20,806 bases of DNA from Syncephalis plumigaleata (taxonomy: Eukaryota > Zoopagomycota > Zoopagomycetes > Zoopagales > Piptocephalidaceae). Shown here piece by piece: positions 1 through 20,806 of this stretch. The position numbers and the translations under genes are program-made. The DNA is taken from positions 1-20,806 of the forward strand of contig JAIXMF010000248.1 in assembly GCA_025201365.1 (NCBI GenBank), written 5' to 3'. Position 1 is the first letter of the stretch; each line of letters starts with the position of its first letter. The notes beneath the pieces were generated by a model. That model was given only the letters and a program-made list of their open reading frames with translations. It had not been told where the DNA came from and made no database searches.

Positions 1-490
1 GATGGCGGTGAATACGTATGTCCATCCCATGCTGTATCCGCTGATCCATTTCTATAATTTGCACGATGATTCGAATAGGAGTGATCGTAAGAGCGACTAG
101 AATAAGAGTGTTGCTGCTGATGTTGTTGTTGTTGCTGTTGCTGCAGTTGTAGTTGTGGATGTTGATATGTCGAAGTATCATATCGGGAAGTGCTACTAGA
201 ATCACGCGGTGTTCTCATATTCGGCGCACGATTGTAAGTGGGCGGTCGTACTGGCATGCCGTCAACCCACGTAGTTGCCACACTATGACTAGGCAATCTC
301 GGAGATGAATCCTCAACTGACGGTGCATTATTTACAGATGAGCTAGGTGGTGCGGTACGAGGTTGACGCGATGCATTATTAGTTCGTCGATAACTGGGTA
401 TATCGTTGACAGTGATTTAAGACGAGCGGCTAGTTGTTCGCGCAAGTCTTCGTCATCTGAGGAACTCTCGAATAAATCAGGGAGATTCAT
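1..490 (-). pseudogene. 5' fragment of a second RdRP gene copy, frameshifted and cut by the window edge
   Basis: This is the left-arm copy of the start of the RdRP gene at 11106. The ATG is at 490-488 and the protein begins MNLPDLFESSSDDEDLRE. An A-run of four in the right copy (11178-11181) is three here (416-418), so the frame shifts after about 24 codons and stops near 332. The DNA beyond the shift still matches the right copy to base 1. Either this is a true one-base deletion in a duplicate or a homopolymer error. Whether the rest of the gene exists further left cannot be seen. Confidence 0.8.
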
Positions 491-1108
491 ATTGAAATGT
501 AAGGAGAACAAAAAGGTGCGTAGCAACTAGCAGGTTAACTTGTTGCACTAACACCATATAATGTACAAACAAACGTGGATATCAGTCAATACGTCATAAC
601 AGTTTTATTCAGTAGTACGAACCAATCAGCCTATACATTGAATGATGAAGACGGTCAGATTTGCAGTATGCAATCATTCAAGTTCTATTCGATAGACATG
701 AAAGTGACGCTTATAATATGTATATTGAAGATATTGTTCTTGGATGTTATCAATGAGTAATTGTTTATTAATGATAATACGTGTGTAGCTAATAGTAAAG
801 CATCCTTAATTATCGATAGTAAAGATACTTCTTCTTTATCCAATTATCTGTGTGTGTATCAATAATAATGTTGGAGTGAACCCATCCGATAAACAAACAA
901 ACAAACAAACAAGTAAGCGATAGAACGGCGGCGACGACGACGACGATAGTAATAGTAAAAGTAGTAAATGATAGCATAATAGAAAATAACCACGCGCTAG
1001 AATATCATAGTATAGTATCGAATATGTCTATATATACAAACACGCACACACATATGTATATCTATAGAGATGATAGATGATGAAACACGCCATAGTACAC
1101 GTCTAGGC
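491..1108. other. Intergenic region between Rabin8-like and RdRP copies, left arm
   Basis: About 620 bp with no supported gene. It holds an (AAAC)n tract near 891-912, GAC/GAT-rich short repeats near 928-945, and a minus-strand AATAAA (plus-strand TTTATT at 764-769) placed as a poly(A) signal for the left Rabin8-like gene. It mirrors 10488-11105. Confidence 0.75.
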
Positions 1109-3580
1109 TTAGAAGCTTAGTTGAGATAGGGTGGCCCAGCTACGTCGTGCTCCGGCCATAGCGTCAACCATCGAGGAACGCCATGGATTTCGGTTAATTC
1201 CGTTGCCGTTGCCGTTGTTGCCATTGTTGTCGTTCGATGTTGTCTCGGCTAATTCGGGATCACGACCACCGCCAACAAGTTTAGTAGGACTAACGTGTGG
1301 TGAGGATGGCATCGATCCTGTACCATCTTTTGTTGATATTGCTTTGGCGGCAACACAACTTGAAAGATTAGGAGCGGATTTACGCTTCGTGCAACCGTCG
1401 TTAATGGCACCAGGAAGACTGCTATGTCCAGCGGATGCGGCATTAGCGCCTACAGGTTGAGCTACGGTGTGTGCGCCGTGTACAGGCAATGTGGCAGCAC
1501 CATGTGCGCCTACACGAGCCAAAAACATACGCATTCGATGGCGTAGTAGATCGTGGTAGATCTGCTCGGGTGTAGCGCGTATCAAGCCACGACGCATTAA
1601 ACGAACATAGGCCCAGAACTCGCAGGCAGCCACGAGACGAAGACGACAATCAGCGCAGATGAGTCGTTGAGACTGAGATTGCGTATCTGATTGACGAGAG
1701 GAGTCGCGTTCACCCTCGAGGAATAGACGATGACTGGATTCCGGTGGACATGGTCGTTCGCATAACGTGCACGGTGGCTGGAATGTACTTCCCGGCGATG
1801 TGATCATCGTTTGATAGGCGAATAGTTGTCGTGCATCCGATGCTGCCACCGGTTCAATGATCAAAGTACCCGATTGCACGCCGGTGTGCAGTTTACGCTG
1901 TAAGAAATAGCCAGCGCGATCAAATCGTACACATGGTTCGACGTCGTCATTCTGGCAACGACGTAGAAACTTTGAATTACTCGTGGTGACCGGGTCCACC
2001 GCTAGGGATGCCGTTTCAACGAGTGCCTTATTAGAGGCACCATTCGTATAGCCGATATTGAGCACGTTAGCCTCGCGACTGCACATACGATAGAAGTCTA
2101 CGAAATCGGTGTAGCGACGACCTGCCGTCTCGAATGCTAACAATACGGCGATAGGATCTGCTGCAAATCCTGATGCAGTAGGCGAGGTCATGTCCGAGCC
2201 ATAAGCGCTGTCTGCACTCGGGAACGAGTTCAACGATGTGACCGAGCCATGAGCAACGTGTCGAACGGTGTTTGCAGTCGATTTCGGCACAATGGTTGTC
2301 TCTTGATGATTAGCATCATTATCGGTATCGTTACCTTCGTCGAGTTTGATGGTAATATTCGTTGTAGCACTACCGAACTCGTTTGCAGACTCGTTTGTAA
2401 CGGATGAATTGTTGTCGGCGGTGGTAGTAGGCATGACAGATGCTGCCGACATTGCCTTTTCCATCATACGCTTCAGATCGTTCAGTTGCGCCTTTAACAT
2501 TTGCTCAACGTCTTGTAGCTCTTGTACACGAGCATGATAAATATCACGTTTTCGTTCTGCTTCCGCGCGAGCCCGACGTTCATCCACCACCATCTTTTGC
2601 GCTTCCTCAAATACGGTACGCGATAGATCCTCCAACTGTGCCTCGATGTTGGCTTTGGCAGTCTCCAATTCACCGCGCCGACGAGTTTCAGCCGCCAACT
2701 TTTCGGATGTCTTTTGCAAGTCATTCCTTAGTTGTTCCATTAGAGAGTGTGATGTTTTCGGCTCTTCAGGTTGGGCAAATCCACCTAATGTCGCTGAAAT
2801 AGCGGTTGAAGTAAAGGAGGTCGAGTTGGTCGGTGAACGCATTGGTGTCGGTGTCGCGATACTTGGCGAGCAGGTCGTGCTGTAATTACCATTAGTACCG
2901 TTGTTATTCATCATACCAGGCACTGAATAAGTAAGCGTGCTACTCTCGGGTAGGTAGCCGTTGCTGTCCGTGTGTTCTTCATCGCTATTGAATTGTTTCT
3001 CTGCCTGTTCCTCAAATGACATCTGCGCACATCGGATAGGCGATAATGGCATGGATTCCTGATCGATACCAATGGGGGTGACTGGACGCAGGGTGGCCAG
3101 ACGTGTTTCCGTCTCCCGTAATTCCTGTTCAATACGAATACGTTCCGCACGTAGCGTGTCTACTTCCTGTCGCCAACGATCGTTCTCCCGCTGGAGCGAC
3201 TGCTGGATCCATTCGAGTTCATCGCATCGTGCGGCTAATCGAGCGACATGCTCAGCTAACGGACCATCCTGACTGCCAATAAGATGATGGGCCTGGGAAG
3301 AAGCCGAGGATGGAACAAAGTTGAGCGATCCCGGCATAATCGGAGCCGAGGCAATCGAGGAAGACCGCGAGCGCGACGATGGATAGTTAGCTTCAGATTC
3401 AGAGAGTGCGCTCATACTCGTAGAACGATGTACGGGCAATGGCGTGGGTGGTGGTAATAGTAATGAGCTAGAACTATTGACCATTTGCATGGTAGAACCG
3501 CATTTTAAGCAAGCCGACACTGGAGCATGTGACGACGATGATGATGCCAGCATGGATTCATCGTGATGTTGATTATGCAT
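1109..3580 (-). CDS. RAB3IP: Rabin8/GRAB-like Rab guanine nucleotide exchange factor, intact left-arm copy
   Basis: One open exon encodes 823 residues. Family members activate Rab8/Rab3-type GTPases in secretion and ciliary vesicle traffic. Residues about 106-165 form a first coiled coil; about 277-375 is the Sec2p-type coiled coil, with LEDLSRTVFEEAQKMV matching the family core that contacts the Rab. The C-terminal half (about 475-700) carries the conserved Rabin module: a TLIIEPVA stretch, CTLCERPC near 604-611, ICADC near 641-645, then a helical segment containing CEFWAYVRLMRRGLI. Long Ser/Thr/Asn-rich linkers separate the modules. The ATG at 3580 was chosen because a CTTTCTACAG splice-acceptor-like sequence lies just upstream and the other visible in-frame start gives no homologous extension. 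A TTTATT at 764-769 could provide poly(A) signalling. An almost identical copy with one frameshift lies at 8017-10487. Assignment to Rabin8 versus GRAB is not possible, since invertebrates usually have one ortholog of both. Confidence 0.88.
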   Translation of the reverse strand: MHNQHHDESMLASSSSSHAPVSACLKCGSTMQMVNSSSSLLLPPPTPLPVHRSTSMSALSESEANYPSSRSRSSSIASAPIMPGSLNFVPSSASSQAHHLIGSQDGPLAEHVARLAARCDELEWIQQSLQRENDRWRQEVDTLRAERIRIEQELRETETRLATLRPVTPIGIDQESMPLSPIRCAQMSFEEQAEKQFNSDEEHTDSNGYLPESSTLTYSVPGMMNNNGTNGNYSTTCSPSIATPTPMRSPTNSTSFTSTAISATLGGFAQPEEPKTSHSLMEQLRNDLQKTSEKLAAETRRRGELETAKANIEAQLEDLSRTVFEEAQKMVVDERRARAEAERKRDIYHARVQELQDVEQMLKAQLNDLKRMMEKAMSAASVMPTTTADNNSSVTNESANEFGSATTNITIKLDEGNDTDNDANHQETTIVPKSTANTVRHVAHGSVTSLNSFPSADSAYGSDMTSPTASGFAADPIAVLLAFETAGRRYTDFVDFYRMCSREANVLNIGYTNGASNKALVETASLAVDPVTTSNSKFLRRCQNDDVEPCVRFDRAGYFLQRKLHTGVQSGTLIIEPVAASDARQLFAYQTMITSPGSTFQPPCTLCERPCPPESSHRLFLEGERDSSRQSDTQSQSQRLICADCRLRLVAACEFWAYVRLMRRGLIRATPEQIYHDLLRHRMRMFLARVGAHGAATLPVHGAHTVAQPVGANAASAGHSSLPGAINDGCTKRKSAPNLSSCVAAKAISTKDGTGSMPSSPHVSPTKLVGGGRDPELAETTSNDNNGNNGNGNGINRNPWRSSMVDAMAGARRSWATLSQLSF

Positions 3581-5734
3581 ACTGCTGTAGAAAGGTGAGT
3601 TGAGTGATGATAATGATGATGATGATGATGAGCAGCAGCAGCAGCAGTAAAAAAAAATTGATCAGTAGTAGTTGCAAATGCTAAAATGTATAGACGACGG
3701 TGATAAAACGCAGTTTTGCTATTACACAATAGATAATTGGTTAGTAGAAATTCATCAAAATAATCGTTAGTAAAGTATAATGACAATTACAAGCGATAAA
3801 GAAAGTGGGCAGTTAATGTCAACAACGAAAATGAATAATCGATAGCAAGCTCACAAACAAAAGCAAGTGTCGGTTGAGAAAGAAATGGTAACGGAAAAAA
3901 CCCGTCCATCACAACCGTAAAAGTAAAAGCGGAATGTAGAATGTTTATCATTTCTGTATGGATGCTATCATACACCCACACTTTAATGATCATCACACGC
4001 TCACTCTCACACAATGGTGGCAGGCAGAAGATTGATTAATATAGGAAGAGAAGAAAAGGGTAGAGATAATTAGGCAAAACTATGTCATATCAGCTGATAT
4101 GACATGTGAGTTCCGCTTAGTATATACATGATGATATGTGATGTGGTATACTGTTGTCATACTGCGCCTCTATCTAAAGTGCGTGACATCAGTAGACGTG
4201 TGTATGACATTGACTAATCAATTATACGTAATCGATATATCATAGTTGGACAAACGCTAAGGCAATAGGAATGCAAATAATACCACTAGTAACTGATATT
4301 TCCACGCTTTACTTACTGAACGAATAATAGGAATAGGCAGCCAACAGAATGATACCCCAATATGTCACTCTACGCTGTGAAGATGGGCACTGTGGTAAGA
4401 GTAAGAAACGCAGTACTAGCAACAAATAGCCAATACACCAACAGAAGGAAGAAGAAAGAAAGAATGTAGTCGCACTACTAGCAATAGTAGCAGCAATAGA
4501 GTAGTGATAGAGTAGTAGCAGTGGTAGCAATGGTAGTAGTAGTAGTAGTGGCAATAGCAGTATGCGTATGCGTTTCAAGGTGAGCGTAAAGAATGGAAAG
4601 CCGGGATGAGGTTCGTTGTATGCTGCAGTAAAATAAAGAGAATTTGGAAATGACGGAAAAAAATGAAAAGCGATATTCATAATAACAGCTGTGTTCATAG
4701 AGTACAGGTATACTTTTTCGCTCTCTCTCATTCTCGTTTTCTCTTTCTCTTTCTGTGTGTGTGCGTGTGTGTGTGTGCGCTTATCACTAGGGCGTGTTAG
4801 GCATGCAAGTGCCCAAGACGTTCGAGCAAGCAAATGCAATAACCATTCATGGCTGGGTGCCACAAGGTGATACGTGAATGTGCCGTACGGAAATGGTACG
4901 TGCCAGTCCAAAGCCCTCGCATCCATTATAATATGCACCACAGCAGCATTAATGAATGTAACAACCATTACTAGTGGTGCATCATTCGGATTTAAGCCAA
5001 TTTCCCTTTATTCTACCTATTCATTCGTTGCTAGTAAACATGCCATGTTATACACGCGTACATGCATACACGCACACATATACGCATACATTTACTAGTA
5101 CAATCATTACTGTCTATTGTAGACATGATGCATGGAACAAGATATAGTTTGCATTGGTGAACGCCAATAAGCAACCGTATCAACTAAGCCATTGACTTGA
5201 ATATCCGACTACAAGAAACTGCAACGAAACAGATACACACATGTACACATATGCATACACACATCATACGATTACCATAACAATGGTAACAAATAAAGAA
5301 GGAAAAGGAGGAAGAGGAAGAGGAATAAAACGATGATGCACAGCAGATAAACCGCGCACTCCACGTGTGAATGCAAGTGAGAGAGATAGATAGATAGAAA
5401 GAGAAAAGGAGATGATGATGATATGATGTGTATATACGAGTTTCTGTAAATAATAAGACCTTCAAGTAAACACTTACCGTAATAGTAGTGATTGATGCCT
5501 ATGCTCTCGCTCTTTTTCTTTTACTAAATAATCGCTGTAAATAGATTCAATGGATGGTAAAGATACACGCTATAGAAAACGACAAGTAAAGCAGAATAGT
5601 AAGAAAGCAAGAGAGAGAGAAGGATAATGCAGGAAAGGTTACTTGTCGATATTGGTGTGGCATAATACGAACATGTATTTATATGTCGTGCCAAGTATTC
5701 CATTTAAAGGGAGTTCAAATGAGTCGATAATGAT
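3581..5734. other. Upstream region of the left Rabin8-like gene, no supported coding
   Basis: About 2.15 kb that mirrors 5881-8016. It holds triplet repeats just 5' of the Rabin8-like ATG, a 24-bp perfect palindrome (4082-4105), GT and CT/GA-rich simple sequence near 4725-4785, and a minus-strand GTAAGTG donor-like site (plus-strand CACTTAC near 5470-5477). Open frames in it are low-complexity translations (poly-Leu, poly-His, poly-Ser) that differ in frame between the two arms, so I do not call them. It is probably promoter plus 5' UTR, perhaps with a UTR intron. Confidence 0.6.
4082..4105. promoter_or_regulatory. Perfect 24-bp palindrome, left arm, possible protein-binding dyad
   Basis: The half-site ATGTCATATCAG is followed directly by its exact reverse complement, with an E-box-like CAGCTG at the centre. 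It lies about 500 bp upstream of the Rabin8-like ATG. The TGTCATA half-motif also occurs singly close by (about 4156-4162 and 4203-4209 in one or the other orientation). A regulatory role is inferred from symmetry and clustering only. Confidence 0.45.
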
Positions 5735-5880
5735 GAGTGATGACATCTCGGAACAATTAACCGAAAGATGTGTGTGTAATGGGGACACAAATATAGGCAT
5801 GATAATGATGGTTGATAGGCAGTAAGACATATTCACTTTTACCGAAGATAATAAATAGCACTATTTAGATGATTATCATT
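5735..5880. other. Non-palindromic spacer at the centre of the inverted repeat
   Basis: Between the last matching bases (GAGTCGATAATGAT at 5721-5734 and its complement at 5881-5894) lie about 146 bp that do not pair with each other. The sequence is AT-rich with GAT/ATT short repeats and has no adapter-like or transposon-like motif that I recognise. No supported gene is present. Confidence 0.75.
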
Positions 5881-7491
5881 ATCATTATCGACTCATTTGA
5901 ACTCCCTTTAAATGGAATACTTGCACGACATTATAATACATGTCGTTTATGCCACACCAATATCGACAAGTAACCTTTCCTGCATTATCCTTCTCTCTCT
6001 CTGCTTTCTTACTATTCTGCTTTACTTGTCGTTTTCTATAGCGTGTATCTTTACCATCCATTGAATCTATTTACAGCGATTATTTAGTAAAAGAAAAAGA
6101 GCGAGAGCATAGGCATCAATCACTACTATTACGGTAAGTGTTACTTGAAGGTCTTTATTATTTACAGAAACTCGTATATACACATCATCATCATCATCAT
6201 CTCCTTTTCTCTTTCTATCTATCTATCTCTCTCACTTGCATTCACACGTGGAGTGGCGCGTTTATCTGCTGTGCATCATCGTTTATTCCTCTTCCTCTTC
6301 CTCCTTTTCCTTCTTTATTTGTTACCATTGTTATGGTAATCGTATGATGTGTGTATGCATATGTGTACATGTGTGTATCTGTTCGTTGCAGTTTCTGTTA
6401 GTCGGATATTCAAGTCAAATGGCTTAGTTGATACGGTTGCTTATTGGCGTTCACCAATGCAAACTATATCTTGTTCCATGCATCATGTCTACAATAGACA
6501 GTAATGATTGTACTAGTAAATGTATGCGTATATGTGTGCGTGTATGCATGTACGCGTGTATAACATGGCATGTTTACTAGCAACGAATGAATAGTAGAAT
6601 AAAGGAAATTGGCTTAAATCCGAATGATGCACCACTAGTAATTTTACATTCATTAATGCTGCTGGTGCATATTATAATGGATGCGAGGGCTTTGGACTGG
6701 CACGTACCATTTCCGTACGGCACATTCACGTATCACCTTGTGCACCCAGCCATGAATGGTTATTGCATTTGCTGCTCGAACGTCTTGGGCACTTGCATGC
6801 CTAACACCCTAGTGATAAGCGCACACACACACACGCACACACAAGAAAGAGAAAGAGAAAACGAGAATGAGAGAGAGCGAAAAAGTATACCTGTACTCTA
6901 TGAACACAGCTGTTATTATGAATATCGCTTTTCATTTTTTTTCCGTCATTTCCAAATTCTCTTTATTTACTGCAGCATACAACGAACCTCATCCCGGCTT
7001 TCCATTCTTTACGCTCACCTTGAAACGCATACGCATACTGCTATTGCCACTACTACTACTACTACCATTGCTACCACTGCTACTACTCTATCACTACTCT
7101 ATTGCTGCTACTATTGCTAGTAGTGCGACTACATTCTTTCTTTCTTCTTCTTCTGTTGGTGTATTGGCTATTTGTTGCTAGTACTGCGTTTCTTACTCTT
7201 ACCACAGTGCCCATCTTCACAGCGTAGAGTGACATATTGGGGTATCATTCTGTTGGCTGCCTATTCCTATTATTCGTTCAGTAAGTAAAGCGTGGAAATA
7301 TCAGTTACTAGTGGTATTATTTGCATTCCTATTGCCTTAGCGTTTGTCCAACTATGATATATCGATTACGTATAATTGATTAGTCAATGTCATACACACG
7401 TCTACTGATGTCACGCACTTTAGATAGAGGCGCAGTATGACAACAGTATACCACATCACATATCATCATGTATATACTAAGCGGAACTCAC

Positions 7492-7515
7492 ATGTCATAT
7501 CAGCTGATATGACAT
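7492..7515. promoter_or_regulatory. Perfect 24-bp palindrome, right arm, with flanking TGTCATA half-sites
   Basis: This is the copy of the palindrome at 4082-4105. Including its own two halves, TGTCATA or its complement occurs at 7388-7394, 7436-7442, 7493-7499 and 7508-7514, that is four times in about 130 bp. This density makes a binding-site cluster upstream of the Rabin8-like gene plausible but unproven. Confidence 0.45.
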
Positions 7516-7950
7516 AGTTTTGCCTAATTATCTCTACCCTTTTCTTCTCTTCCTATATTAATCAATCTTCTGCCTGCCACCATTGTGTGAGAGTGAGCGT
7601 GTGATGATCATTAAAGTGTGGGTGTATGATAGCATCCATACAGAAATGATAAACATTCTACATTCCGCTTTTACTTTTACGGTTGTGATGGACGGGTTTT
7701 TTCCGTTACCATTTCTTTCTCAACCGACACTTGCTTTTGTTTGTGAGCTTGCTATCGATTATTCATTTTCGTTGTTGACATTAACTGCCCACTTTCTTTA
7801 TCGCTTGTAATTGTCATTATACTTTACTAACGATTATTTTGATGAATTTCTACTAACCAATTATCTATTGTGTAATAGCAAAACTGCGTTTTATCACCGT
7901 CGTCTATACATTTTAGCATTTGCAACTACTACTGATCAATTTTTTTTTAC

Positions 7951-7985
7951 TGCTGCTGCTGCTGCTCATCATCATCATCATCATT
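7951..7985 (+). repeat. TGC and CAT triplet repeats in the Rabin8-like leader
   Basis: About five TGC units followed by a run of CAT/ATC units end roughly 30 bp before the ATG at 8017. The mirror copy is at about 3612-3646. They lie just upstream of the acceptor-like CTTTCTACAG, where they could form part of a pyrimidine-containing intron end or of the 5' UTR. Confidence 0.7.
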
Positions 7986-8016
7986 ATCATCACTCAACTC
8001 ACCTTTCTACAGCAGT

Positions 8017-10487
8017 ATGCATAATCAACATCACGATGAATCCATGCTGGCATCATCATCGTCGTCACATGCTCCAGTGTCGGCTTGCTTAAAATGCGGT
8101 TCTACCATGCAAATGGTCAATAGTTCTAGCTCATTACTATTACCACCACCCACGCCATTGCCCGTACATCGTTCTACGAGTATGAGCGCACTCTCTGAAT
8201 CTGAAGCTAACTATCCATCGTCGCGCTCGCGGTCTTCCTCGATTGCCTCGGCTCCGATTATGCCGGGATCGCTCAACTTTGTTCCATCCTCGGCTTCTTC
8301 CCAGGCCCATCATCTTATTGGCAGTCAGGATGGTCCGTTAGCTGAGCATGTCGCTCGATTAGCCGCACGATGCGATGAACTCGAATGGATCCAGCAGTCG
8401 CTCCAGCGGGAGAACGATCGTTGGCGACAGGAAGTAGACACGCTACGTGCGGAACGTATTCGTATTGAACAGGAATTACGGGAGACGGAAACACGTCTGG
8501 CCACCCTGCGTCCAGTCACCCCATTGGTATCGATCAGGAATCCATGCCATTATCGCCTATCCGATGTGCGCAGATGTCATTTGAGGAACAGGCAGAGAAA
8601 CAATTCAATAGCGATGAAGAACACACGGACAGCAACGGCTACCTACCCGAGAGTAGCACGCTTACTTATTCAGTGCCTGGTATGATGAATAACAACGGTA
8701 CTAATGGTAATTACAGCACGACCTGCTCGCCAAGTATCGCGACACCGACACCAATGCGTTCACCGACCAACTCGACCTCCTTTACTTCAACCGCTATTTC
8801 AGCGACATTAGGTGGATTTGCCCAACCTGAAGAGCCGAAAACATCACACTCTCTAATGGAACAACTAAGGAATGACTTGCAAAAGACATCCGAAAAGTTG
8901 GCGGCTGAAACTCGTCGGCGCGGTGAATTGGAGACTGCCAAAGCCAACATCGAGGCACAGTTGGAGGATCTATCGCGTACCGTATTTGAGGAAGCGCAAA
9001 AGATGGTGGTGGATGAACGTCGGGCTCGCGCGGAAGCAGAACGAAAACGTGATATTTATCATGCTCGTGTACAAGAGCTACAAGACGTTGAGCAAATGTT
9101 AAAGGCGCAACTGAACGATCTGAAGCGTATGATGGAAAAGGCAATGTCGGCAGCATCTGTCATGCCTACTACCACCGCCGACAACAATTCATCCGTTACA
9201 AACGAGTCTGCAAACGAGTTCGGTAGTGCTACAACGAATATTACCATCAAACTCGACGAAGGTAACGATACCGATAATGATGCTAATCATCAAGAGACAA
9301 CCATTGTGCCGAAATCGACTGCAAACACCGTTCGACACGTTGCTCATGGCTCGGTCACATCGTTGAACTCGTTCCCGAGTGCAGACAGCGCTTATGGCTC
9401 GGACATGACCTCGCCTACTGCATCAGGATTTGCAGCAGATCCTATCGCCGTATTGTTAGCATTCGAGACGGCAGGTCGTCGCTACACCGATTTCGTAGAC
9501 TTCTATCGTATGTGCAGTCGCGAGGCTAACGTGCTCAATATCGGCTATACGAATGGTGCCTCTAATAAGGCACTCGTTGAAACGGCATCCCTAGCGGTGG
9601 ACCCGGTCACCACGAGTAATTCAAAGTTTCTACGTCGTTGCCAGAATGACGACGTCGAACCATGTGTACGATTTGATCGCGCTGGCTATTTCTTACAGCG
9701 TAAACTGCACACCGGCGTGCAATCGGGTACTTTGATCATTGAACCGGTGGCAGCATCGGATGCACGACAACTATTCGCCTATCAAACGATGATCACATCG
9801 CCGGGAAGTACATTCCAGCCACCGTGCACGTTATGCGAACGACCATGTCCACCGGAATCCAGTCATCGTCTATTCCTCGAGGGTGAACGCGACTCCTCTC
9901 GTCAATCAGATACGCAATCTCAGTCTCAACGACTCATCTGCGCTGATTGTCGTCTTCGTCTCGTGGCTGCCTGCGAGTTCTGGGCCTATGTTCGTTTAAT
10001 GCGTCGTGGCTTGATACGCGCTACACCCGAGCAGATCTACCACGATCTACTACGCCATCGAATGCGTATGTTTTTGGCTCGTGTAGGCGCACATGGTGCT
10101 GCCACATTGCCTGTACACGGCGCACACACCGTAGCTCAACCTGTAGGCGCTAATGCCGCATCCGCTGGACATAGCAGTCTTCCTGGTGCCATTAACGACG
10201 GTTGCACGAAGCGTAAATCCGCTCCTAATCTTTCAAGTTGTGTTGCCGCCAAAGCAATATCAACAAAAGATGGTACAGGATCGATGCCATCCTCACCACA
10301 CGTTAGTCCTACTAAACTTGTTGGCGGTGGTCGTGATCCCGAATTAGCCGAGACAACATCGAACGACAACAATGGCAACAACGGCAACGGCAACGGAATT
10401 AACCGAAATCCATGGCGTTCCTCGATGGTTGACGCTATGGCCGGAGCACGACGTAGCTGGGCCACCCTATCTCAACTAAGCTTCTAA
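8017..10487 (+). CDS. RAB3IP: Rabin8/GRAB-like Rab exchange factor, right-arm copy with one frameshift
   Basis: This is the mirror copy of the intact gene at 3580-1109, with the same ATG context and the same stop (10485-10487). A C-run of five in the left copy (3074-3078, written as G on the plus strand) is four here (8519-8522). The frame shifts after about residue 168 and the shifted frame ends at 8685. The original frame reopens immediately and runs on to 10487 with a translation identical to the left copy, covering the Sec2 coiled coil and the C-terminal Rabin module. As written the ORF would give a product with only the first coiled coil. Because the other approximately 2.47 kb show no amino-acid change, a homopolymer error or a very recent break fits better than an old pseudogene. 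AATAAA at 10827-10832 is a candidate poly(A) signal. Confidence 0.8.
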
Positions 10488-11105
10488 GCCTAGACGTGTA
10501 CTATGGCGTGTTTCATCATCTATCATCTCTATAGATATACATATGTGTGTGCGTGTTTGTATATATAGACATATTCGATACTATACTATGATATTCTAGC
10601 GCGTGGTTATTTTCTATTATGCTATCATTTACTACTTTTACTATTACTATCGTCGTCGTCGTCGCCGCCGTTCTATCGCTTACTTGTTTGTTTGTTTGTT
10701 TGTTTATCGGATGGGTTCACTCCAACATTATTATTGATACACACACAGATAATTGGATAAAGAAGAAGTATCTTTACTATCGATAATTAAGGATGCTTTA
10801 CTATTAGCTACACACGTATTATCATTAATAAACAATTACTCATTGATAACATCCAAGAACAATATCTTCAATATACATATTATAAGCGTCACTTTCATGT
10901 CTATCGAATAGAACTTGAATGATTGCATACTGCAAATCTGACCGTCTTCATCATTCAATGTATAGGCTGATTGGTTCGTACTACTGAATAAAACTGTTAT
11001 GACGTATTGACTGATATCCACGTTTGTTTGTACATTATATGGTGTTAGTGCAACAAGTTAACCTGCTAGTTGCTACGCACCTTTTTGTTCTCCTTACATT
11101 TCAAT
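10488..11105. other. Intergenic region between Rabin8-like copy and RdRP, right arm
   Basis: 618 bp mirroring 491-1108. It contains the AATAAA at 10827-10832, an (GTTT)n tract near 10684-10706 and GTC repeats near 10651-10665. It should hold the Rabin8-like 3' UTR and the RdRP promoter. No convincing TATA box or other core promoter motif was identified. Confidence 0.7.
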
Positions 11106-14100
11106 ATGAATCTCCCTGATTTATTCGAGAGTTCCTCAGATGACGAAGACTTGCGCGAACAACTAGCCGCTCGTCTTAAAATCACTGTCAACGATATACC
11201 CAGTTATCGACGAACTAATAATGCATCGCGTCAACCTCGTACCGCACCACCTAGCTCATCTGTAAATAATGCACCGTCAGTTGAGGATTCATCTCCGAGA
11301 TTGCCTAGTCATAGTGTGGCAACTACGTGGGTTGACGGCATGCCAGTACGACCGCCCACTTACAATCGTGCGCCGAATATGAGAACACCGCGTGATTCTA
11401 GTAGCACTTCCCGATATGATACTTCGACATATCAACATCCACAACTACAACTGCAGCAACAGCAACAACAACAACATCAGCAGCAACACTCTTATTCTAG
11501 TCGCTCTTACGATCACTCCTATTCGAATCATCGTGCAAATTATAGAAATGGATCAGCGGATACAGCATGGGATGGACATACGTATTCACCGCCATCATCA
11601 TCAACAAATAACGTAGCTTATGGTGGAGATCAAAGTATCAGCTTTATTCGAAATGATTTACCACGTTCTCCTGTTATAAGAACGAATCAATATGGACGAC
11701 ATAGTATGGATTCCTATGATCGTACAAGTCATCGTGACACTACGCCAGACACGCCTACACCGCGAGAGTCACGCGAACGACGTATAGCTCGTGTGTCGAC
11801 GGCATTTCGACAAATGCAACAAGATGCGCAGGAACACGACAATGAAGCTGATACTAATGGAAATGACGGTCAACGAACGAATATCAACTAGTAAGTAGTT
11901 GCACTAATTCATAGCATTATTAATAGTGTTAATTGGATCATTGCCAGTGAGTATCTAAATCGATATCGCGAACGATTAGATCGTGAAGGTGAACGACCGT
12001 CATCGGCATCACGTCGTTTAGAGGGGCAACAGTTCGATAATTACGATCAACAATATAATATAAGTCCAGATGCGAATACACCGGATAATAGATCGTCAGG
12101 CCATCCTCGTCATCTGCTAGTGTCATTACGAGGTGTACCCGAAGGTGCCACCATGAAAGACATCATTCGCGTATTCAGCGAGTATGGTAATCTATTCACG
12201 GCTCGATTGGATTTCAGACGTGATGCGCATCGACGAGATAGATCGAGTACGCATTCGGGTCGTGCTGCCATTTGCTACTTGCCTATCGGTCATCATCCAC
12301 ATCCTATGATTCGGCAATTACTCGAGGGTAGAGGAACAGTTACAGTGACCGTTTGTCAAAGCACCGTATGGGCCAGTAGAATGAGTCATCAGGAGATAGA
12401 GGAGCATCGTATGCTTGACAATGAATGTGCTTCGCAAGAGGTACTACTACCGCGGTTTCTTAATCAGCCACCGCCTCCATCCAATATAGTGCAGCCGGAT
12501 ACTCGTGTTAACAATTACAACAACAGCAACAACAACAACAGTAATGCTATAGGTTGGCAGCGATTCAATGCTGAATCCTTGGAGCTTGGCTCGGAACCAC
12601 GTCGCGGCGTTTATCTCTCGTTCTGGCAGCCGGACGACAATATTAGAATGGCGATCGATCCTAATAAAGGTCGAGTGCAATTGGAGTTCCACTTCTCGAA
12701 TGTTGAATTCCGTATGGAGTTACGCTGCAAGAATGCGCCCTGTTGGTATCGTATACAACGATTGTCATCCGTAGAAGATCATATGGGCGAGCCTATCAGA
12801 CGATACGTGCTACTACTTAAATTAACACGACCGCCATTGGTGGAACGTATGGAGACACGTCTCGATGAAATGGTGTCGAGCGAGCAAATGACCTACAATC
12901 GCGATAATACATGGCGTCGTGTGGTACAAATCAGAATGCAAGAGGTATCGGATGCTCATAGGAATCAGCCGCAAGAAGCATTGCCGCACGACGAAGACAA
13001 GGGTGTTGTACTATTTGGCAGTTGGCTCGATTATCGTTTACAGTTCAACTTTAGCGGGGATCAACGTCATCGTGAGCAAACATTTATTAATGCACTAAAG
13101 AATGGTCAAATATTTGGATTACGTCATTTATCGGATGATGAAGACGCGCGTATGAATCCATTACAAGGCATTCCTGCCACAGTTTCGAATAACAACAGCA
13201 ACAACAACAACAACAATGTTAACATTCAAGCATCACCATCAGTATCAATGATTGACACGTCGAGTACACAATTGTCGGCGTCGTCGTCGACATTCTTCAC
13301 GAATATTGACCTAACCATTACAACCGATTTATACCACTATCCATGGCAGCGCATTAGTAAATCGAGACTGAGAAATGTTGGATCTGAAGCATTTCCCGTA
13401 TGGTATCGATTGGAGCAATACATTACGCAACGACAATTATCGGAGCATGCACTTGACGAGACATTCTTCAATTTATTGGCCAGTAATGTTAAAGGGGGTG
13501 TAGCGGAAAACGCGTTAAAGAATCTCATTCATCGATTACGCGACACGGACGATGTCAATCAGGCGTTAGAACGGGAGATTAATCGTTTGAAGTCGATACG
13601 AGAGGAGGAAGACGTTGATACCGAGGAGTATTTACTAGATGGTATCAGTGGTATCGATGGTGAAAAACCGGAGAAAGACGACGACAACGACGACGACAAG
13701 GAAGATAAGAAAGACGAGGAAGAGTCGGGCAAACAGCGACAAAAGGTTCATCCTGCTGGCCGTATCATCAGTCAACACATGAGTCGTATGGCCTTACCTG
13801 ATTATTGTGTCGCCATACCTAAAGTGGTAGTTACCCCTACTAAAATGTACGTTCTCGAGCCAATGGTTGAAACTTCAAATCGAGTGGTTCGCTCATTTTC
13901 ACAACATGCCGATCGTTTACTACGAGTTCAATTCCTGGACGAGTCGTTTTTCGGTATTCGCGGTGAAGCAAAAACACATGACATGATTTTCCGTAGACTA
14001 TTCTCGATGCTACTACGGGGAATTGTTGTCGGCGGACGACACTACGAGTTCCTAGCGTTCTCGTCGTCTCAACTACGCGAGTACGGCTGCTGGTTCATCG

Positions 14101-16264
14101 CGCCGAAATCGGGCGAGGACGGTATCAATGCGAATAAAGTACGCGAATGGATGGGCGATTTCTCCGAGTACAAGATTATCGGCAAGTTAGCCGCACGTAT
14201 GGGGCAATGCTTCTCGAGCACGCGTATGACCATTGAACTTGCGCCCGATCAATTGACGTGTATTGATGATGTGAAATCGAGCGACGACAAGTATATGTTC
14301 TCCGACGGTGTCGGTCGCATGTCAGTAGCGGTGGCACGCGCCGTAGAAGAGAAGATGGGACTCAAGGAGTTGCCGAGTGCCATTCAATTTCGACTAGGTG
14401 GGTGCAAGGGCGTGCTTACCCTACACCCGCCACTATCGCCGGTCAGTCCACATATCGAGTATCGCGAGAGTCAGCGCAAGTTCAACTCGGACCATCGCGC
14501 GCTTGAGGTTATTAGAACGGCCAATTACACGGCCGGTGCCTTGAATCGACAGATTATCGTGTTGCTCACTTGTCTCGGTGTCGACGGGAACATTATCCTA
14601 AATCGTATGCGTGAGATGATGGATCGTATCAATCGTGCCATGAACGATCGTGAAACCGCTATTCGTTACCTGCAACAATCGGGCGATGAATACGAGGTGG
14701 TCGAGCGTATGGTGTCTATGCTACGTGTTGGCCTATTGCAAACGCGTGAGATCTACTTAGTCAATATGTTACGCGTGTTTCGCGCCTACCAGTTACGCGA
14801 ATTAAAGCGTAAAGCCAATATACCAATTGAACAAAGTGTCATGCTACTGGGTGTTATGGATGAATTCGGTGTACTGGAACCTGACGAGATATTCCTACAG
14901 TATGATCATCCAGGTTACGAGCAACCTTACGTGCCAACCGGTCGTTGTGCCGTCACTCGTAATCCGTGCTTTCATCCCGGTGACATTCGTCTACTGAAAG
15001 CGGTGGACAAACCTGAACTACGGCATTTGAAGAATGTTATCGTATTCAGTCAGAAAGGTTATCGCGATGTGCCGAGCCAGTGTAGTGGCGGCGATCTAGA
15101 CGGTGATGAATTCACGCAAGTATAGATGATGCACACACTTTAGATTGATACTAACTAATATTTATTTATTTAGTTGTATTTGGGACGAGAAACTACTACC
15201 CGAATCAGATGCTGATCCAATGGATTATAGTGCACCTCAATCGCCGATGCAATCAAATATTTCAATTAACGATATTAAAAGGGCAAGTATCATTAACGTT
15301 TATTTAACATTTATTAACCCATGTTATGTAACAGTTCTTTATTAATTATATCTTACATGATAATCTTGGAATGATTGCACACGCACATCTCGCGCAAGCC
15401 GATCAACTTACCGGTGGTGCTAAGCATGGGATTTGCATTAGACTAGCACAGCTACACTCGACCGCGGTGGATTTCCCTAAAACTGGTAGACCGGCCGAGT
15501 TTGAGCGAGGATTACGTCCGCGTGCCTACCCGCATTTTATGGAGAAATCCGATCGAGGCATGTATCACTCGGACACGGTACTAGGCAAGATCTACGATGC
15601 TGTGACGTTAGAGGAATTCAAACCGGACAATAAGGTACAGTTAGATAAGCGTATGTTGGTCGATGGCTACGAGATATTCATCGATAGTGCGCGAGCACTG
15701 AAACGTGAATACGATCGAGCCATCGATGGTATAATGAAGCAATTTGGTATTGCCACTGAATGGGAGGTAATCAGTGGCTGGGTGGTACGCTTCCACGATG
15801 CCTTTCAGCGTCGTGACTATCACTTGCGGCAACAAGTGATGGAGTTGGTGCACGGGGTGGAGAAACGATTCCGACATCACTTTATGCGCGAGTTTCTCGA
15901 GGCGATCGAGAATGAAGAACCTACCGCTTCAACGTCAACACCGCCACCACCACCACCATCCAACAAAGTACTTCGTCTCGATGATCTGATGGCCAATCCG
16001 CCGGCAGTTTCACCAGCTGTACGGCGTAGCAACAAGAAGAAGATCAAATGGCCACCGGAAATCCAAGAAGCAATTCAACAAAAAGCATCCGCTTGGTACT
16101 ACATTACCTACGAGCCATCGGAACGAGCGCTAGCTGAGGAATTCAGCGATCGCTTCTCGTTCCCTTGGCTTGTGCACGAGCACTTGTGTGCTATCGTGCA
16201 AGAGCAGCAGCGTGTCATTGATGACGAGGAATTGGCACGTACACTTGCTCAACTTCGCCACTAA
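11106..16264 (+). CDS. Cellular RNA-dependent RNA polymerase of the RNA-silencing (QDE-1/EGO-1) class
   Basis: Exons join(11106..11890, 11948..15115, 15174..15282, 15335..16264) give 1663 residues. Such enzymes copy RNA to make secondary small RNAs or dsRNA in RNA interference. The first 300 residues are disordered, with poly-Gln near codon 118. An RRM-like segment follows at about 317-400 (HLLVSLRGVPEGATMKD onward). Poly-Asn and a highly acidic insert (about residues 565-600) precede the catalytic core. The core shows FSSTRMTIEL, FSDGVGRMS, an FRLGGCKGVL stretch, and the catalytic GGDLDGDEF with Asp1311, 1313 and 1315. The exon 4 segments FFINYILHDNLGMIAHAHL and LHSTAVDFPKTG complete the family's C-terminal part. 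Introns 2 and 3 begin with GC rather than GT; only these junctions keep the conserved frame. All key residues are present, so the gene looks functional. AATAAA occurs at 16303-16308 and 16331-16336. It is not viral: the DLDGD signature and introns are those of cellular RdRPs. Confidence 0.93.
11891..11947 (+). other. RdRP intron 1, GT-AG
   Basis: 57-nt intron, GTAAGTAG to TTGCCAG. It splits a Tyr codon (TA/T) and joins the low-complexity first exon to the long second exon; removing it makes the two frames continuous. Confidence 0.85.
15116..15173 (+). other. RdRP intron 2, GC-AG, directly after the catalytic motif
   Basis: The 58-nt intron starts GCAAGTAT, contains a TACTAAC branch-point match (15149-15155) and ends TTTAG. 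Splicing gives DGDEF-TCIWDEKLLPES, as expected for the family. The nearby GT at 15120-15121 gives stops in the next exon, so the GC donor is required. Confidence 0.85.
15283..15334 (+). other. RdRP intron 3, GC-AG
   Basis: The 52-nt intron starts with the same eight bases as intron 2, GCAAGTAT, and ends TAACAG. Phase-0 splicing gives INDIKR-FFINYILHDNL, matching the family. The GT at 15287 leads to a stop within a few codons of the next exon. Confidence 0.85.
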
Positions 16265-16465
16265 GTGCACACGCACACACATATGTTACAATTTATTAAT
16301 CTAATAAACCATTAACTTTTTTTTATTAATAATAAACTAATAAATCAGTCCTACAGTCGCGCTATTATTCTTAACTTTTTTATTTATTTTTTCTCGAATT
16401 CTATTTTATTATTTATTTAGTTACTCATTCCTCTCTCGATACTATTCTTATTGTTCACCACCACG
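16265..16465. other. Short intergenic region, RdRP 3' UTR and SRR1-like promoter
   Basis: 201 AT-rich bases with several AATAAA sequences (16303-16308, 16331-16336) for RdRP cleavage. Long T-runs lie near 16317-16325 and 16376-16392. No other gene is visible. Confidence 0.6.
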
Positions 16466-16653
16466 ATGTATACGAGTAGTCTACCGAGTCAAGACCATAA
16501 TGATTTCACACCAGTTACGAGAAAGCGTCGAGCTAAAAAGTCGAACAAGTCAACCTTATTGGCGGTAGAGACAAACGATACCACACGTAGAATGAAACTA
16601 TTAGAACGAGCACGTCAGCGTATTAATGACTACTGGTATGTATACTGATAGCG

Positions 16654-16688
<35 letters not shown>

Positions 16689-16710
16689 CGTATCTCTTAT
16701 TAATATTCAT

Positions 16711-16756
<46 letters not shown>

Positions 16757-17810
16757 GATATAGCGATGAATTGAAACAGAGTGCCGTCTATGATCATATA
16801 AAGAGTAAGTGAACAATACTTTTGTGATATCCTACGGTATAGCTAATGGATAACGGTGGCAGGTTTATTGGATATCGAGATGAATGACATTACACCGCAG
16901 TATCTGCTAGTATACGGTCTAGGATCGATGATGGAATCCAGGGAAGCATGCCGTCAATTGGCATTGTGCTGCCTATTAGAACAGCACCTCAAGGTACCTT
17001 ATAGATTATGTATGATAATAGCAATAATAATAATATGAGATTAGTTGACAGACAAGGTACAAGGTTATGATCCTGTATGGTCAACTGAAGATCGTCAATT
17101 ATTCGAAGAAAGTGGATTTCAATGTATTGAGAAAAATGAAGTAAGTGAATAGATTAGAAGAATGAACGCTATACGATCATTACATGACTATTCCATCTAA
17201 TCCCTTTCTATTACTCTTACTATTACTCTTATTGCAGGGTGGATATCGTTCACTGGATGCGTGTACCCTTGTTTATATGCCTCATTGTCCTAAAGGCCTC
17301 TATGCTAATTTATTGGCTGCTAACTGGCATCCTGATCGATTAAAGCATCTCATTCTACTGGGCAATTGTTTGGAGACATATGTAGAACGGTAAGTGATCA
17401 TATTACTTTATTGTATAATGCTACTAACGAGCGATACATGTATTGGATAGATTAACTGAAGCACAACTACGTAAAGAGTTCCCGCATGCATTGGAGATAT
17501 CCTTTACTGCTATCATCGCATAGATATGATAGATGCTAGTCTTTAACTCATCAAATCTTCTTATTTATACGCTTGTAAACTACTAAATATGCGGTATATA
17601 AGACTAAAGAGAACGTCAAAAGAGGGTGGTCATTCCACGTCTGTCATTGAGGAGGATCGACGACAATTCGACGATAATCAACGAGCATTTAGTGAATTAT
17701 GCTTACAGAGGGTAGATTCATCGTTGCTTTCCAAACAACAACATAGCATTGAGTGGTCTAGTACTACTACTACTACCATTATGGATCCAGAGTTAATTAT
17801 TAATGAATAG
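16466..17810 (+). CDS. SRRD: SRR1-like protein (SRR1 domain)
   Basis: Seven exons are supported: join(16466..16635, 16764..16804, 16863..16993, 17057..17140, 17238..17389, 17451..17496, 17571..17810), 287 residues. The family is named for a plant red-light/circadian gene; animal and yeast members are linked to transcription/heme or microtubule phenotypes, and the biochemical activity is uncertain. The basic N-terminus contains DFTPVTRKRRAKK, typical of the family. The SRR1 domain starts near residue 80 with QYLLVYGLGSMMES, continues through YDPVWSTEDRQLFEESGF and the TLVYMPHCPKGLYANLL stretch, then HLILLGNCLETYVER. The ATG at 16466 was chosen because it gives the conserved N-terminus. The sixth intron (17497-17570) appears to be a U12 AT-AC intron; reading through it instead gives a stop at 17521-17523 and a shorter, 216-residue protein. 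The last exon contains DNQRAFSELCLQRV, resembling the family's AFNDTSxHxF end. AATAAA repeats follow at 17989-18004. Confidence 0.85.
16636..16763 (+). repeat. SRR1-like intron 1 filled with CA, TA and TAC microsatellites
   Basis: The 128-nt intron (GTATGT to ATAG) is mostly simple repeat: CA at about 16654-16670, TA at about 16670-16688 and about 15 copies of TAC at 16711-16756. It is the longest intron of this gene, and most of its length comes from these tracts. Confidence 0.9.
17497..17570 (+). other. Candidate U12-type AT-AC intron in the SRR1-like gene
   Basis: The 74-nt intron begins ATATCCTTT, a full match to the minor-spliceosome AT-AC donor consensus, and ends TTATAC. TCTTTAAC at 17540-17547 is close to the U12 branch site TTCCTTAAC and lies about 24 nt before the end; the terminal AC is the first AC after it. 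Splicing is phase 0 and joins FPHALE to ACKLLNMRYIRLKR, the frame of a 240-nt exon that has no good start of its own. No GT-AG alternative I tried gives as clean a junction. Confidence 0.75.
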
Positions 17811-18055
17811 ACAACATTGCATGTATGACATTGTACTAGATACACGTAAACAAACAAATAATGAACTGATGAATTTGCTATTAGATGATGATGATGATGA
17901 TGATGATGATAAACTTTACTGTTGAGCGGTAAAGAAAATAAGATCGATTATCAGCTTTGTTATTATTGCTTATTCTTGTTCCTATAATAATAAATAAATA
18001 AATAACAATATATATTAGCTACTCTTGTATATAAAGTGTATAAACAATTGGTTAC
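17811..18055. other. Convergent intergenic region between SRR1-like and COX7C
   Basis: 245 bp between two tail-to-tail genes. It holds a (GAT)9 tract at 17884-17910 and overlapping AATAAA signals at 17989-18004 for the plus-strand gene. No clear minus-strand AATAAA for COX7C was found here. Confidence 0.7.
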
Positions 18056-18441
18056 TTACAAAGTCCAAGCGCTCGCTATCAACAAGACAGAACAAAACAA
18101 TAATCAATTAGCATGTCTATGATATGATACCAGGTGATAAACACTTACCAATAAATGGAAGGGCGAAACCAAATCCGCAGTAAGCGGTGAATTTCACAGC
18201 TAGACCAAACTTGTTCTTGGTAGAGAAGGGCAAGTTCTACGCGTAGATGATAAGTAAGCGTCATTAATACGTATTGAGACGCGTGTATCTCTCTCTCTCT
18301 CCCTTCCTCCTTCTCTTCTAATCCACTCACCTGACCATTGGTATTCTCAGCGTGGAACATACGACGCTGTAGTTGACCACGAACAGATGGAGCAATAGTC
18401 GCGGCACGACGTGTTACTTGACGAGTAGCAAGTGCAAACAT
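18056..18441 (-). CDS. COX7C: Cytochrome c oxidase subunit 7C, mitochondrial
   Basis: Exons complement(join(18056..18075, 18149..18236, 18331..18441)) give 72 residues. The product is a small nuclear-encoded subunit of respiratory complex IV in the inner mitochondrial membrane. Residues 1 to about 30 are basic and Ala/Ser/Thr-rich with no acidic residue until Glu32, like a mitochondrial presequence. The mature part contains NLPFSTKNKFGLAVKF, matching the family's KNLPFSVENKW segment, and then one membrane helix (about residues 50-68) ending FIASAWTL. Introns are GT-AG: GTGAGT (phase 0) and GTAAGT (phase 1). The ATG at 18441 was chosen because it starts the presequence. An in-frame ATG at 18585 would add 48 hydrophobic residues ahead of it and is unlikely. 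It lies on the same strand as DARS, 233 bp downstream of its stop. Confidence 0.9.
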
Positions 18442-18648
18442 ATTGAATACTGATTGGCACACGGCAATAAGTAGATTGGTGAAGAAAAAAGTGAATCCGG
18501 CAAATAACGGAAAGGAGAAAGAAATGAGTGGATGGATGGTCCAATATGGAAACTTGATGCATTTAACACGTAGGATCATTTTCATCTCGATTAGTGATGC
18601 CTTTTTCTCTTTCTAGTTATTTATGTAAGTAAAAACAATTCATATCCT

Positions 18649-18654
18649 TTTATT
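18649..18654 (-). terminator. Poly(A) signal for DARS
   Basis: AATAAA on the minus strand, 21 nt beyond the DARS stop codon. The position is plausible for compact 3' UTRs; no transcript evidence is available. Confidence 0.45.
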
Positions 18655-18674
18655 AAGAAAAGTTATAGTATTGC

Positions 18675-20806
18675 TTATGGTTCAAGTCGCTTAGGATCAC
18701 GCGGGAATAGAGATGACTTGCGAATGTTACCTAACGAGAGGAATAACATTAAAACACGCTCCAAACCTAATAAAAGTTAAACATGTATCATTAATACAAT
18801 TGTTGTCATTGTCATTATTATCCGTATCCTAATGCTTTTACTTACCAATACCGCCACCGGCATGTGGTGGTGTGCCATACTTGAATGCACTAATGTATGG
18901 TTCAATGGTGCTAGGGTCGACACCATGCTCGTCGGCACGTTGCTTCAAATATTCCGAATCGTGAATACGCTGAGCACCCGACATGATTTCCTCACCACGA
19001 ATGAAGAAATCATACGAGTTGGAATAGCCCTAGAATAGGTGTGGCTCGTTAGATAGCTCGATAGTGATTGTCACCAGTCTAACTTACTGGCATATTAGGA
19101 TCTGGCATCGTGTAGAATGGTCGTACTACCAATGGGAACTTGTCCAACATGTAAAAGTCAGTGTCGTATTTCTCCTTGACTAAACGCCGAGAAGACGTTC
19201 CGCCTCGGTGGACAAGTCGTCAAAGTCACCAATCTCATAGCCGGATTCACGCAATAGTGCATGCCTTCCGGGTAAGTTAGACACAATGTCTTGGGTAGAT
19301 ATTTCAATGGCTCGAATGGATGCTGACGATTGACCACGGCAATCTCACGAGCATAACGTTGGTTGAGACCATCGAAGATAAATACGAATAACTCGCCAAG
19401 TAGATCGAGCACCTAGTCATTTCATTAATGATGGTTAATTATGGATAGTATAATCGATCAAATAGACGACATACTTCATGATAATGCTCCTGGAATGCCA
19501 TCTCCAAATCGAGTCCTACGAATTCCGTCATATGACGATGCGTGTTGGAATCCTCGGCACGGAATACTAGATGTACAGGTAAAGTAGATCAATAATAATG
19601 CATTCTATGTGCCATCAAAAGCTTACCTGGTGCAATCTCGAATACACGATCGAAATCAGCACAATGGCCATTTGCTTATAGAATTGTGGCGATTGAGCCA
19701 AATAGGCAAAAGCTATGTGTAAATGATAGAATATGAATAATAAGACTATGCTATCTTTGTAATAGGCATGCTTACTCTTGAAGTAGCTAATCTTAAATAC
19801 GCTAGCGCCACTCTCGCTGGCTGCACCAAGAATCTTGGGCGAGTGTATTTCTACAAACTTATTTGCAATAGGAATTCACGGAATAACTCGCAAATACCCG
19901 ATTGAATACGGAAGATAGCTGGCCAGTGATGGTCTATGAAGCATGCATTGATTACTAATGCTATACTAGATTTACGTATGCACACTTACACGAAGATCAA
20001 CCACTCGATTATTGAGTCGTGTATCCAGATTGACTCGACTGAATTGATTATCCTCCTGATTAAGCACATCATTAGCATACAATCAAACAATCAATCAATA
20101 GCATTCTAGTATGAATTAGTACCTTTTCATACTCGGTATCAGGTCGTGAAGCATCTTCAATCGAGAATGGTAATTGTGGTGCAGCCTCACTCTCCACGAA
20201 TATGAAGAATATACGATGATTTAGTAAGCATTGCATTAGTTGACGAGTCAATCGATACATACCGATAGAATGTGCAATTCCACATCTTGTATTGTGCAAC
20301 TACGAATGGTTCGGGTGCCTTGTTGACCTTGGCCTCGATTAGCACGATCGATTCATTGGGAATGCTAATTGATGATGCAACTCCGATAAGCTTCCTATTA
20401 GTCTACTAATATAATGGTAAAGACCTACCCTACAGCAAACTTCAACATCTTCTTGCTGACACGCTCCTTATCGGTGATCAGCAATGCTTGCACGGTAGAA
20501 TACTGGGTGGCGCAATAGGAAGAAGCACATTTTGGCACCTTGATGTAGTTCATGATTAGTACATTACATTATCGAGTAATAGTGAAATGTCCTGTTCTTA
20601 TTTCCTTCTTGTACGTACCTGTTGGACGCGAGTGCTGTACACGAGCACGTATAAGGATCGTTTGTTCGGCAAGATCCGCCGAGATATCCTTGATGGCAGT
20701 ACGAACACGGCCTGCACACAAATGCATATATATGATTATCGAAATGAACATGGTTTATCATTATGTCATTCGCTTACCAGTGCGTTCTTGCGATTGATTC
20801 ATAGGC
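18675..20806 (-). CDS. DARS1: Cytosolic aspartyl-tRNA synthetase, 5' partial, with several one-base frameshifts
   Basis: The enzyme charges tRNA-Asp. Twelve exons are visible: complement(join(18675..18766, 18846..19029, 19088..19412, 19475..19566, 19627..19712, 19776..19933, 19990..20055, 20123..20191, 20263..20364, 20429..20538, 20619..20711, 20778..20806)). In order: the anticodon-binding OB fold ([22 protein letters not shown]), the hinge ([11 protein letters not shown]), the class II core with [10 protein letters not shown] (motif 1), [16 protein letters not shown] (motif 2), and GGGIGLERV (motif 3, split by an intron), ending [12 protein letters not shown]. Seven places need a one-base correction to stay in the family frame: near 19186, 19260, 19664, 19861, 19922, 20298 and 20507. 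All splice sites but one (the 20191 acceptor is weak) are intact and the protein is conserved on both sides of each break, so sequencing indels are more likely than a pseudogene. The N-terminus is outside the window. Confidence 0.9.

Follow-up and report, generated by a model that had tools for sequence, protein, structure and literature searches.

Positions 17497-17570 of the window (the whole 20,806-nucleotide stretch of DNA that we analyzed, from the mycoparasitic fungus Syncephalis plumigaleata) very probably interrupt an SRR1-like gene as a real spliceosomal intron, of the U12-type AT-AC kind. This reading is supported by the donor, by a branch site able to pair with a candidate U12 and by the way in which the other allele's public protein is spliced. 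Further support comes from an orthologue, from the SRR1 profile and from 13 more loci in the genome that we judged to hold AT-AC introns. As U12-type AT-AC introns go it is ordinary, but it comes from a lineage in which they are little documented. The features of the gene and of the intron are as follows.

16466..17810, + strand: coding part of the SRR1-like gene, 7 exons, 291 amino acids, stop TAG at 17808-17810 (basis: translation)
16466-16635, 16764-16804, 16863-16993 and 17045-17140, + strand: exons 1 to 4
17238-17389, 17451-17496 and 17571-17810, + strand: exons 5 to 7
17497..17570, + strand: predicted U12-type AT-AC intron, 74 nt, phase 0 (basis: sequence, and the public protein encoded by the other allele)
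17497..17505, + strand: 5′ splice site ATATCCTTT (basis: sequence)
17521..17523, + strand: in-frame TAG that would end the unspliced protein at 220 amino acids
17540..17547, + strand: branch site TCTTTAAC, whose second A (17546) precedes the last intron base by 24 nt
17569..17570, + strand: 3′ splice site AC, first AC downstream of the branch site (basis: sequence)
17571..17810, + strand: last exon, stop included, holding F252 (invariant) and P285 (nearly invariant)

On the + strand, the sequence from 17497 reads ATATCCTTTACTG, and the donor, the branch-like motif and the terminal AC all lie where the original prediction had placed them. The donor ATATCCTTT matches [AG]TATCCTT(T), the pattern of the AT-AC subtype of U12-type introns. 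The branch site TCTTTAAC departs from the U12 branch-site consensus, TTCCTTAAC; it lies less than about 40 nt from the 3′ end and pairs around a bulged A with a U12 that is itself a sub-threshold candidate. The intron ends in TTATAC at 17570, with GCTTGT following, and the AC end gives an in-frame join that homologues back. The predicted phase 0 was confirmed for this join (17496/17571), which cannot be slid by one base either way, so that AT-AC is its sole reading. Left unspliced, the frame passes through 8 open codons (ISFTAIIA) and stops at the TAG, also as predicted.

Across the window, RTATCYTT occurs at 7 sites on either strand, four of which look like two copy pairs of an inverted duplication. 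Among these donor-like sites, only the one at 17497 has a separate YYYTTRAY within 130 nt downstream; the YYYTTRAY of site 20684 overlaps that site's own donor. The other five introns of the SRR1-like gene start with GT and end with AG. Beyond them, the claim that all other introns in the window are U2-like was checked by the donor scan only.

The spliced protein belongs to the SRR1 family (PF07985, 131.2 bits; Pfam cut-off, 24), and its match extends to profile position 171 of 172. The read-through protein scores 123.0 bits, with a match to position 143, and a protein cut at exon 6 scores 121.8 bits, with a match to position 140; the profile end is attained only when exon 7 is included. Within the last exon, all 13 aligned sequences share F252, and P285 is nearly invariant, the alignment comprising this protein and 12 database proteins chosen by hand from 34 matches of a profile search that scored its 7996 best candidates.

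A comparison of the SRR1-like query with 5.8 billion proteins gave two matches at E 0.001, the better of which is the S. plumigaleata protein BDF22DRAFT_684599 (P0001). This public protein reads ...EFPHALEACKLLNMRYIRLKR..., that is, FPHALE-ACKLL across the junction. The Syncephalis fuscata orthologue P0002 reads ...LPHAEQACNLLVMRYIQLKR... (LPHAEQ-ACNLL), so the C terminus of an orthologue likewise runs unbroken through the junction; the P0002 model is without a stretch just before the junction and is known here from the protein alone. Exon 4 has two candidate acceptors, 17045 and 17057, separated by 12 nt and each keeping the frame. P0001 uses 17045 (LTDK included), and after comparison with it our initial choice of 17057 was replaced by 17045. 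The original prediction had expected a gene finder limited to GT-AG introns to end the protein early; this was not seen in the public annotation, which already has the junction, though the model begins only in exon 3. Transcripts presumably underlie this public model.

The contig of the window is most likely a second haplotype whose other allele lies on contig C351; the two are 97.7% identical over 15 kb. In allele C351:670065, exons 6 and 7 spliced as AT-AC are identical to the end of P0001, and the whole C351 translation equals P0001 from MNDITP onward. The intron is the same in both alleles at 74 of 74 nt, and exon 6 differs at 3 of 46 aligned sites. Exon 7 has a 6-nt gap and differs at 6 of 240 aligned sites, three of which are third positions; alone, these differences are not strong evidence of coding. 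Because the 3′ flank shows the same full identity (17814-18100, 287 of 287 sites), the identity of the intron alone is no mark of special status.

The window also carries a long inverted duplication (1-11596). Its arms fall into four pieces, three with 100% complementarity and one with 95%. Allele C351 is without the palindrome; window positions 1-5888 match it reversed and 5867-20806 forward. The duplication, which doubles a Sec2/Rabin8-like gene (PF06428, PF25555), is probably an assembly artefact at a haplotig end.

We propose that U11 would bind ATATCCTTT and U12 would bind TCTTTAAC by base pairing in a single step of recognition, that U6atac would then take the place of U11 at the donor, and that A17546 (or A17545) would form the branch. 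The first AC downstream, AC17570, would be used to join exon 6 (...FPHALE) to exon 7 (ACKLL...). The order of these steps and the actual excision in RNA are modeled on the generally known mechanism of minor splicing. In duplex calculations, the donor could form 7 bp with the 5′ end of U11 (−6.1 kcal/mol) and 6 bp with AAAGGA of U6atac (−6.3 kcal/mol). The branch region GUCUUUA(A)CUCAU forms 12 bp with AUGAGUAAGGAU of the U12 candidate around one bulged A (−11.4 kcal/mol), compared with −2.5 kcal/mol for the same region and a short, generic U2 sequence. Such duplex energies are a calculation and no evidence of use.

The genome appears to encode three of the four minor snRNAs, one of them by our judgement. 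U6atac, U11 and a U12 candidate thus support the original prediction, which held that the intron implies a minor spliceosome; a search for all four put U11 and U6atac over the Rfam cut-offs and the U12 candidate below its own, and U4atac was not found. The U6atac gene (C1:977157-977339, − strand; 33.7 bits against a cut-off of 33, E 1.7e−5) contains AAAAGGAGAGA and ACAAAAGGAGAGA. The U11 gene on contig C329 scored 35.7 bits as first cut and 53.7 bits in the full-length scan (cut-off, 39), with a match that spans model positions 1-134 of 134 and has a long insertion. For comparison, U6 scored 77.9 bits. In 14 prokaryotic control genomes, weak matches (E up to 10) occurred for U6atac in 11, for U4atac in 11, for U12 in 7 and for U11 in 3, none of them over cut-off.

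A first Rfam search for U12 at E 0.001 returned nothing, and a looser repeat gave two copies, C373:829795-829977 (+ strand; 27.4 bits, E ~0.02) and C290:45990-46171 (− strand; 22.8 bits), against a cut-off of 53. Both carry AUGAGUAAGGAUAU followed by a GGCC...GGCC hairpin, and AAUAUUUG, present in both, is likely an Sm site. From the predicted 5′ end onward the copies agree at 97.4% over 269 bp, their 5′ half is conserved, and no similar flank was found. Because the similarity is confined to these 269 bp, they are more likely dispersed gene copies than alleles, and we dropped the latter interpretation. The U12 motif ATGAGTAAGGAAAA, with one mismatch allowed, occurred 45 times, compared with 48 times in the control; Rfam recognized 0 of the 45 as U12, and the later candidate has two bases unlike those of the motif. 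After GUAA, the candidates have GGAUAU where the Rfam consensus has GGAAAA. In 7 of the 14 introns judged AT-AC, the 8-nt branch motif is preceded by an A that could, by eye, pair with the changed U.

A U4atac partner should be partly complementary to the U6atac stretch ACCCCCUGGGCAAGGACGG; a genome search with a pattern complementary to U6atac matched U6atac itself only. The best match to the U4atac model (RF00618) reached 22.4 bits, below cut-off, in a search that scores best candidates only, and the full scan did not confirm it. CENATAC, described in passages of PMC8280824 as acting in the splicing of AT-AN introns, had no candidate in the genome (CENATAC/CCDC84, PF14968), and no control genome matched this profile either, so that the search had no positive control. 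PF02966 (Dim2/TXNL4B) matched three pieces of a single gene and gave two further, weak matches of about 14 bits; the matches may be to Dim1 or to Dim2.

Could the major spliceosome excise this intron instead? U2-type AT-AC introns are known (PMC8280824), a few of them in animals. We consider this highly improbable, given a donor that is the full U12 consensus, a branch region that pairs better with the U12 candidate than with generic U2, and minor snRNA genes in the genome. That nothing is spliced, the protein ending at 17523 and the last exon being a separate small gene or non-coding, can be set aside almost entirely: the open read-through codons and the separate open reading frame downstream would fit it, but P0001 and P0002 are unbroken across the junction, and the end of the SRR1 profile, with F252 and P285, lies beyond it.

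Partial retention is compatible with a U12-type AT-AC intron and concerns only some of the transcripts, in which the 220-residue read-through would be a second functional or a decay-bound product of regulated minor-intron retention. Human AT-AN minor introns are described as having relatively high basal retention (PMC8280824), and here the nearby in-frame stop closes the read-through. Against such a product, the codons ISFTAIIA raise the family score by 1.2 bits (123.0 versus 121.8), and we think it unlikely.

A U12-type AT-AC intron in the SRR1-like gene would also have company in the genome. The pattern ATATCCTT N22-52 TYYTTAAC had 25 genome-wide matches compared with 7 in the reversed control, near-identical copies being counted singly on both sides. 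The stricter RTATCCTT...TTCCTTRAC had 5 matches and none in the reversed control; with the donor open to A or G, all 5 were AT, at 3 distinct loci, 2 of which we judged real. The 25 matches reduce to 17 loci when 8 near-identical pairs are taken as alleles, as checked for SRR1 only, and we judged 14 of the 17, SRR1 among them, to be AT-AC introns. Of the others, L011/L013 looks like an ATATCC of coding sequence that precedes a GT-AG intron, L048 keeps an open read-through and looks coding, and L039 allows a GT-AG reading equally well. Because these three dropped loci also have loose in-frame AC joins, a join in frame is not diagnostic by itself.

In 8 of the 14 judged introns, a Pfam domain spans the join over its cut-off (XPG_N, DHHC, Alg6_Alg8, DCP2, zf-HIT, AAA, MoCoBD_2 and SRR1), and CRM1_C spans another below cut-off (21.8 versus 23.2). 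The remaining five (L012, L041, L046, L053 and L056) are without a domain, and since the control itself had 7 matches, some of them may be due to chance. The host genes are XPG/RAD2 (two introns), DCP2, ALG6/8, ZNHIT1, a DHHC acyltransferase, an AAA ATPase, a CRM1-like gene, SRR1 and three unnamed genes, together with the MoCoBD_2 gene, which we take to be xanthine-dehydrogenase-like, and one presumably encoding a Csf1-like protein. In the xanthine-dehydrogenase-like gene, the later acceptor scored 93.8 bits; one 6 nt upstream, at 84.7 bits, was rejected on the lower Pfam score. The two XPG/RAD2-like introns (L040 and L041; C2:341661-342688) lie about 1 kb apart in what is apparently one gene, the second having no Pfam support. 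At ZNHIT1, the predicted junction is exactly matched by the public S. plumigaleata protein P0003, and 22 of 23 database matches, this protein included, share a 16-residue CxxCG...CxxCG loop. Of the AT-AC junctions, two were compared with public models of S. plumigaleata and both are already present there, so that at least two genes are modeled in this way.

The 14 introns are 65-88 nt long and fall into phases 0, 1 and 2 in 4, 5 and 5 cases. The second branch A lies 11-26 nt from the last base (median, 17), which places the 24 nt of the SRR1-like intron at the long end of the range. All 14 are AT-AC, but the search pattern admitted AT donors only. We tentatively conjecture that Syncephalis has a reduced minor spliceosome in which almost all remaining introns are AT-AC and the U12 has changed at the edge of its branch-pairing region (GGAUAU), with branch sites and 3′ spacing having drifted along; at present we hold this to be doubtful.

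The intron shares with U12-type AT-AC introns of animals, plants and early-branching fungi the donor ATATCCTT, a branch site near the 3′ end, the AC end, an in-frame splice and minor snRNAs in the genome. It is unlike them in its branch site, TCTTTAAC for the consensus TTCCTTAAC, placed 24 nt from the 3′ end. It is a further example of a known phenomenon, minor introns having already been reported in Zoopagomycota (Basidiobolus). The survey of Larue and Roy reports minor introns in early-branching fungi, including Basidiobolus meristosporus and Rhizophagus irregularis, gives Basidiobolus the highest minor-intron density in fungi and infers a low ancestral density for Zoopagomycota (PMC10639083). 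Basidiobolus and Syncephalis belong to the same phylum, the latter to the Zoopagales. Syncephalis is unnamed in the main text of that survey, and the supplements may list it; our literature search, which covered papers without supplements, found none linking Syncephalis with the minor spliceosome. In the part of PMC7865070 available, the S. plumigaleata genome serves for binning.

Phycomyces blakesleeanus has 8-9 AT-AC and 8-12 GT-AG U12 introns, and Rhizopus oryzae has 1 and 2-3, respectively (PMC2846911). Both share AT-AC U12 introns with Syncephalis; both kinds were counted there, compared with the AT pattern only here. Blastocystis minor introns are rich in AT-AC (77%, 196/253; PMC10639083), a predominance that Syncephalis would share if its minor introns are indeed mostly AT-AC, and they are about 40 nt long compared with 65-88 nt in Syncephalis. 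The present intron adds Zoopagales to the scattered fungal lineages known to have minor splicing. The 32.6-Mb assembly, which holds U11, U6atac and a divergent U12 candidate, would allow AT-AC splicing and the joint change of U12 and branch site to be studied.

Two other parts of the window are of note. Directly upstream of the SRR1-like gene, positions 11895-16264 (+ strand) hold a eukaryotic RNA-dependent RNA polymerase gene of the type found in RNAi pathways; it matches PF05183 in two pieces, with 491.8 and 95.7 bits. Downstream, positions 19615-19875 (− strand) match class II tRNA synthetases D/K/N (PF00152, 32.5 bits), perhaps as part of a gene that runs past the window end.
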